This document shows positions 49,479-51,043 of a stretch of 64,000 nt of DNA, in pieces; the first letter of the stretch is position 1, and every line of letters starts with the position of its first letter. The stretch lies in the NCBI RefSeq assembly GCF_013407165.1, contig NZ_CP026994.1, positions 124,001-188,000 on the forward strand. The letters run 5' to 3'. The position numbers and the translations under genes were made by a program. The notes under the pieces were generated by a model. It made no database searches. It saw only the letters and a program-made list of their open reading frames with translations, and was not told the origin of the DNA. The DNA is from Nitrosopumilus oxyclinae (GTDB lineage Archaea > Thermoproteota > Nitrososphaeria > Nitrososphaerales > Nitrosopumilaceae).

Positions 49479-49500
49479 ACAGATCTATATGGATCAGGTC

Positions 49501-49506
49501 TATATA
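49501..49506 (+). promoter_or_regulatory. TATA box upstream of the structured RNA candidate
   Basis: TATATA lies about 27 bases before 49530, where the G/C-rich structured region begins. With no start codon in a meaningful frame downstream, the promoter would drive a non-coding RNA. Confidence 0.35.
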
Positions 49507-49527
49507 CTAGAAACTTCAACTTATAGT

Positions 49528-49619
49528 ATCGCGTGTTTTGGGTAACGCCGGACTAACTCTAGATAAAGGTCCAAGAATAAACCCACGATGGCGGTTTACA
49601 GGTGAAAGCCCGTAACGCC
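49528..49619 (+). ncRNA. Candidate structured RNA with competing helices
   Basis: A G/C-rich island in A/T-rich DNA. TGGGT (49539-49543) can pair with ACCCA (49580-49584) around hairpin GGAC/GTCC (49550-49553 with 49569-49572). Further on, GGCGGTTTAC (49590-49599) pairs with GTAACGCC (49612-49619), with two bulges, around GGT-GAAA-GCC, a GNRA tetraloop hairpin. GTAACGCC occurs identically at 49542-49549, so the same arm has two possible partners. It lies between a small membrane gene and the 3' end of aspartate kinase. Family not recognised. Confidence 0.45.
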
Positions 49620-49627
49620 AATTTACA

Positions 49628-51043
49628 TTATTCAAAATTTATGTTTGAAATTTCTTGATGAATTGCCTTGATGGCTTTTGCAATATTGTCATGTGTATCT
49701 TCTACAACGATAATTATTCGTGATGTTTCCTCTTGTGCATCCATGTTCAATATGTTTAATCCAGATTCACCAATTTTTGCACTAGTTCTAGATGCTACTT
49801 GCTGAACTCTCCACATTTCATCTCCGATTAGTGTAATGACTCCTCTGTTGAATGTAATGGTGGCAAGTGAATCAAAAGCTAAAAGATATTTTTCATTTCT
49901 TTTCACATATTCTCCATCTAAAAACAATATTCTTGAAAATTCAATTCCATCTTTTGTAAATGGTGATAGAATAACAAATTCACTATAATGTTTGTCTTTT
50001 TCTAGAGATGTTAATAATTTTTGAATAGCACTTGTCTCGATTCTAAAAATAGCACAATTTTCTTTTCCTGTAACTATTTTTATTGGATGTCCTTTTTGTT
50101 CCTCTAAATTTCTCTTAATAGTAGTTATTTTTTCTGGGACTTTCATATTAGTAATAGTAATTGGTATGTCTACACCATTTTCAACAATTTCTTTAATTGC
50201 AATTGGATCTAAAATCTTCATCCCAAACATTCCTGCAAGTCTTGCTTCGTTATATGACAATTGAGTAATTTCTCTTAGATCAGAATCAACAATTTTTGGA
50301 TCTGCTGAAACCACTGAACTGTCTTTTTCAAAATCTATACTGGTTTCATATTTTTTATGAAATAATATTCCTAGATCTGCTGCTGTTCTATCTGAACCAC
50401 CACGCTCGTATGTTGTAGTGATATTGTCTACAGTTTTTCCAATAAATCCGCCTATGGTGACTACCTCATTATTCTCTACAAGATCTACAGTTTTGTTCAT
50501 TCTCTCTCTAGATTCTGCAGCAAGAAAATTTGTAAATTCTATATTTTTATCTGTGATGATCGGCCAATCATCAAATTTTACTGCTTCAGATTTGATATTA
50601 TTACTTCGTAGGATGTGGTTCATTACGTGAGACATTAAAATCTCGCCTGAAAATGCTAATGCTTTAGAACGTACTTCATTTGCAAATTCTTTATTCTTAT
50701 AGGCCTCATCTAGTGCACTTTGTGCTTTTTCAAGATGATAATCAATTGTTTTTATACAATTTTCCTTATTATTCTCATCTACTTTTTCCAGAATTTTTTG
50801 ATAAGTTGATTTTACAATATCTAAAGATGGTTTTTCTCCCTTCTCTGCATTTCTACCCTGCTCCAAAACAACATCAGTCAATGAACGTTTTTTTTCATTG
50901 TAAATTGTTAGTGGTGCTGAAAAGACTGCAATCACTTTGGAGTCTGTTTTTAATTTATCAACTCTTTGAATAATTTTTGCAATAAATTCACCATTTGGAC
51001 CTAGTGCACTGCCACCAAATTTGGCAACTATTAGTTTAGTCAT
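49628..51043 (-). CDS. lysC: Aspartate kinase
   Basis: Phosphorylates aspartate, the first step of the lysine, threonine and methionine branch. The 471-residue protein begins KFGGSALGPNGEF, the kinase phosphate loop, and has TYERGGSDRTAADLG and KILDPIAIKEIVENG of the amino-acid kinase fold. Two ACT repeats at about 310-470 (ITLIGDEMWRVQQVA, GLNILNMDAQEETSRIIIVV) give feedback control. Start ATG at 51043. It is transcribed toward the structured RNA candidate. Confidence 0.92.
   Translation of the reverse strand: MTKLIVAKFGGSALGPNGEFIAKIIQRVDKLKTDSKVIAVFSAPLTIYNEKKRSLTDVVLEQGRNAEKGEKPSLDIVKSTYQKILEKVDENNKENCIKTIDYHLEKAQSALDEAYKNKEFANEVRSKALAFSGEILMSHVMNHILRSNNIKSEAVKFDDWPIITDKNIEFTNFLAAESRERMNKTVDLVENNEVVTIGGFIGKTVDNITTTYERGGSDRTAADLGILFHKKYETSIDFEKDSSVVSADPKIVDSDLREITQLSYNEARLAGMFGMKILDPIAIKEIVENGVDIPITITNMKVPEKITTIKRNLEEQKGHPIKIVTGKENCAIFRIETSAIQKLLTSLEKDKHYSEFVILSPFTKDGIEFSRILFLDGEYVKRNEKYLLAFDSLATITFNRGVITLIGDEMWRVQQVASRTSAKIGESGLNILNMDAQEETSRIIIVVEDTHDNIAKAIKAIHQEISNINFE

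Follow-up and report, generated by a model that had tools for sequence, protein, structure and literature searches.

A structured RNA gene almost certainly lies at positions 49530–49625 of the forward (+) strand of the window (the whole stretch of 64,000 nucleotides of Nitrosopumilus oxyclinae DNA that was analysed), encoding a predicted non-coding RNA of about 95 nt with inferred ends. The explanation that accounts best for the data overall, and which is considered moderately probable, is a stand-alone, pseudoknotted small RNA of the Nitrosopumilus family that has its own promoter, dimerizes through a kissing loop and acts in trans. According to this scheme the molecule would be transcribed as a small non-coding RNA and fold into a helix P1, an H-type pseudoknot whose long loop carries a second helix (P2), and a hairpin (P3) at the 3' end. 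The hexamer in the P2 loop would pair with the identical hexamer of a second molecule to give a symmetric kissing-loop dimer, the conserved purines beside it stacking in the manner of retroviral dimer initiation sites, and the resulting rigid dimer would act in trans, as a regulator or as the RNA component of a complex with protein, and not as a cis switch of lysC.

BLAST searches with positions 49480–49640 detected the locus in 79 of the 95 genomes of the genus (53 of 56 among those of good quality), with one locus in most of them, and a covariance model (R1) matched 193 of 250 genomes of the family, covering 17 of 22 genera and normally with a single copy per genome. Conservation in related genomes had been named beforehand as a check on the earlier note and is confirmed by these counts. 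Across an alignment of 80 loci the core is hardly variable and the 3' hairpin varies by compensation. Two class-wide samples, of 300 and 400 genomes, gave no match outside the family, and the phage records and viral contigs searched held no copies. A pattern scan of genome contigs returned at least 120 stretches and, among the matches listed, all belong to Nitrosopumilales or to unplaced thaumarchaeal bins. One copy (L076, genome G011) is decaying, with P1 broken and the loop hexamer UCUAGA still present.

The G/C-rich block that first drew attention in this A/T-rich DNA has a G+C content of 50% vs. 30% for the whole window, and the conserved unit is wider than that block (approximately 49482–49625, promoter included). 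Its fold as a single sequence is ordinary (z -0.97); the block is regarded as more than chance because of its conservation and the compensatory changes across relatives, and not because of fold energy. The earlier proposal of a structured RNA is upheld. A protein-coding gene, the other explanation singled out in advance, was rejected: an open frame of about 30 codons occurs in the window, but relatives carry stops and indels of 1–2 bases and the substitutions follow base pairing.

The RNA also falls outside the known families, as had been suggested. A tRNA search of the block gave no match, no Rfam 15 family was recovered at gathering score, nor up to E 10 for the short region, and Rfam 15 and literature searches yielded no description of this RNA. 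Thaumarchaeal transcripts have been mapped, and the non-coding RNAs described in the available part of that work are other ones (PMC5069720). With regard to guide RNAs, the ACA box that the H/ACA class has just 3' of its hairpin is not borne out (the window reads TTTACATT, as do some relatives, and others have TTTCATT or TTCACT). For the C/D class, which has a C box RUGAUGA and a D box CUGA, the one C-like sequence, AUGAUGG, lacks conservation and, by inspection, a D box is absent from the aligned sequences. The archaeal RNase P RNA (RF00373, E 2.5e-56) and SRP RNA (RF01857, E 2.2e-26) are likewise single-copy structured RNAs, but both are located elsewhere in the genome, so this RNA is neither of them.

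Upstream alignment across genera shows that positions -31 to -25 are the most conserved. They correspond to a TATA-box-like element (CTATATA at 49500–49506, CTAAATA in most relatives; the TATATA box itself at 49501–49506) that lies 25–31 bases before the core and, given the usual archaeal spacing, places the probable transcript start close to 49530. Just upstream of this element is a dyad, GATCTATATAGATC (GATCTATATGGATC in the window, 49482–49495), which is conserved across genera and is the sole match with up to one mismatch in its own genome. A dedicated regulator possibly binds there; the idea of an operator used genome-wide was rejected, as there is one site in the genome. The RNA was assigned to the + strand because of the position of the TATA box and of the many G-U pairs, each of which would turn into an A-C mismatch on the opposite strand (e.g., one P2 pair is U-G in 58 of 69 rows).

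At almost every locus the gene converges on lysC, with ilvE and usually a small membrane gene upstream, in agreement with the placement between the membrane gene and lysC given in the earlier note, and no co-directional downstream gene is present at the locus. Loci that lack the membrane gene or have another in its stead (L003, L022, L124, and L130) retain both the RNA and the TATA box, which argues that the RNA is not the 3' end of that gene and bears out the promoter of its own that had been postulated.

The core comprises three predicted helices. P1 (GCGU/ACGC, 49531–49534 with 49545–49548) is paired in 99.6% of cells and, being almost invariant, is consistent with the data but beyond test by covariation. 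P2 (GGAC(U)/(G)GUCC, 49550–49554 with 49568–49572) is paired in 99.1% of cells and shows changes on both sides in four of its five pairs. The pseudoknot (UGGGU/ACCCA, 49539–49543 with 49581–49585), which joins the P1 loop to the 3' side, is very probably real: its second pair is G-C, A-U or C-G and never broken, although the outer pair fails in 17 of 69 rows. Among 93 distinct cores its strands read UGGGU/ACCC, AGGGU/ACCC, UCGGU/ACCG, UAGGU/ACCU, and GAGGU/ACCU, and the three inner pairs are complementary except for one U-to-A change. Taken over the 69 distinct rows of the core alignment, 98.1% of cells are paired, eight pairs changed on both sides and double-change cells number 48 vs. 10.3 in shuffles and 0–3 in controls with slid partners; the structure beats both kinds of control on every measure. 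The likely topology is an H-type pseudoknot with a U-rich loop 1 and an A-rich loop 3 that carries P2. Base triples are common in pseudoknots of this kind, and the nearly invariant A-rich joining strand AAGAAUAA (49573–49580, alignment A3) is possibly the minor-groove strand of the pseudoknot, with a triple-helix role.

P3 (UGGCG...CGCCA with a GAAA loop, 49589–49620) is the 3' terminal hairpin and shows compensatory changes in all outer pairs. The full model including P3 contains 123 double-change cells vs. 25.8 expected from shuffles, in an alignment that was fitted to the structure and hence leans toward it. The hairpin refolds in nearly all of 77 representatives, paralogues included, with a mean z of -3.9 against mononucleotide shuffles. 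Comparison among relatives thus shows compensatory changes behind each of the predicted P2, pseudoknot and P3 pairings. A Nitrosopelagicus-like copy (L170:151–239) carries, in place of P3, a hairpin whose loop includes nine consecutive U.

The apical loop of P2 contains the palindromic hexamer UCUAGA (49558–49563), the proposed site of the symmetric contact. The hexamer is self-complementary in all 171 distinct locus instances with a pattern-found core and palindromic in all 93 distinct cores, which comprise UCUAGA (85), UCAUGA (5), UCGCGA (1), CCUAGG (1), and AUCGAU (1, from L314). The central adjacent bases 3 and 4 are UA, AU or GC, and no half-changed hexamer was found. The type I variants need four independent changes on the lysC tree and two further changes occurred in paralogues (CCUAGG and AUCGAU), about six in total. 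The constraint appears specific to the hexamer since the base directly before it varies freely; purines flank it, with A at -2 in 91 of 92. Bases 3 and 4 change together and, being adjacent, cannot pair in cis, so the pattern is best read as trans pairing between identical loops. A symmetric kissing-loop homodimer is therefore considered fairly probable on the basis of covariation, against which stand the weak self-pairing of UCUAGA (-5.2 kcal/mol as a bare duplex), the small number of changes and the predominance of UCUAGA among the rows.

The alternative that survives best, though rather unlikely, is a monomeric structured RNA whose palindrome is kept for a dimeric protein site at the DNA level or for an RNA-binding homodimer. 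The scarcity of hexamer variants would suit it, and the promoter does carry a DNA dyad; however, the palindrome is in the loop that caps a covarying helix, and its centre changes freely yet only jointly, which a sequence-specific protein contact does not explain. The homodimer also has precedents. Dimers of the OLE and GOLLD RNAs were argued from adjacent-base covariation in palindromic kissing loops (PMC12286853), and the same signature, an apical-loop palindrome with adjacent compensatory substitutions, was found here for a predicted symmetric kissing loop. Those RNAs are large, ornate and bacterial, with solved homo-oligomers, and have no sequence or secondary-structure resemblance to the archaeal RNA, which is of about 95 nt and whose dimer we only infer. 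The dimerization initiation site of HIV-1 has a 9-nt loop in a viral genome, whereas the loop here measures approximately 13–15 nt and belongs to a stand-alone cellular RNA with a pseudoknot. The two share a six-base apical-loop palindrome with conserved flanking purines, which the HIV-1 site requires (PMC7357161).

The arrangement of the core also recalls the fluoride and preQ1-III aptamers. These are H-type pseudoknots with an inner hairpin, a U-rich loop 1 and an A-rich loop 3, and in them, as here, a 3' strand that follows the second hairpin is the partner of the P1 loop. The compact pseudoknotted core and its many invariant unpaired bases could belong to an unrecognized riboswitch aptamer or self-cleaving ribozyme, but this is improbable in a stand-alone gene with no downstream gene to control and no match to an Rfam model even at E 10, and a transcript predicted to begin at the core has no leader to cleave.

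An antisense or 3'-end regulator of the convergent lysC is very improbable. It would agree with the most frequent arrangement, tail to tail with the RNA end about 10 bases from the lysC stop; nevertheless, the gap is 200–1300 bases in L113, L120, L125, and L128, no lysC adjoins the RNA in L114, and type II copies are located elsewhere. A trans-acting or protein-bound role of the proposed dimer is tentatively favoured instead, since the gene stands alone, survives changes in its neighbourhood and has its own promoter and a unique dyad.

The weakest alternative is the riboswitch-like mechanism of the earlier note, in which the arm GGCGGTTTAC (49590–49599) alternates between two copies of GTAACGCC. 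The elements on which it was built (both copies, at 49542–49549 and 49612–49619, the arm, the GGT-GAAA-GCC hairpin and the TATATA box) were all found at the stated positions, and the window has three copies of GTAACGCC in all, where shuffling predicts 0.06. In the window and its near relatives both copies are indeed possible partners of the arm (about -9 and -11.5 kcal/mol in the window, and about -9 to -12 kcal/mol for the helix with the first copy within the genus). As a conserved mechanism, mutually exclusive helices are hardly credible and were refuted: in several distant genera the helix with the first copy falls to about -1 to -4 kcal/mol while P3 holds at about -13 to -23 kcal/mol, only P3 is conserved by compensation (the second copy co-varies with its arm inside it), and nothing co-directional lies downstream for a switch to control. 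Its role in P1, and its place beside the pseudoknot, keep the first copy fixed throughout the family; since the alternative helix is lost elsewhere, the repeat is a property of the lineage and not a mechanism, and the joint presence of the two copies, one locked in P1 and the other part of P3, is a coincidence of this lineage.

Ammonia-oxidizing archaea belong to the most numerous cells of the ocean, and literature searches turned up no account of a small RNA peculiar to this group. The present RNA is conserved family-wide, can be tested in cultured Nitrosopumilus and is of a size suited to NMR and in vitro work. Functional RNA oligomers are seldom seen in nature (PMC7357161). RNA quaternary structure backed by evolution is known from viral genomes and from a small number of large bacterial RNAs, and the dimer, if true, would extend it to a small archaeal RNA. 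There is about an even chance that this is a new family of archaeal small RNAs needing kissing-loop homodimerization beside a triple-helix-type pseudoknot, in which the self-recognizing palindromes of the paralogues (CCUAGG and AUCGAU) may allow them to form separate dimers within a single cell.

These paralogues retain the core. Type II copies (L133, L134, L313, L314, L315, and more weakly L316) have their own promoters and keep the core with their own pseudoknot letters (UCGGU/ACCG in the better ones) and palindrome (AUCGAU in one genus), without P3, and the L132 paralogue combines GAGGU/ACCU and CCUAGG with a different hairpin. The core is thus taken as the functional unit, as divergent paralogues retain it and lose P3. 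A second undescribed dispersed non-coding element, RNA-B (GCCCAUGCAAAAUCCCGGUUGGUUUCCUUUAGAG...CUCAGGGGGUAGAGGUG...), was also observed (e.g., L133:2180–2320 and L356–L366). It is absent from the Nitrosopumilus oxyclinae genome and has no Rfam match, and its tally of 49 of 250 genomes includes hits from the type II core portion of the query as well. A fusion of the type II core with RNA-B was rejected, as other RNA-B copies have unrelated upstream sequence. In Nitrosopumilus, RNA-B occurs in up to three copies per genome.
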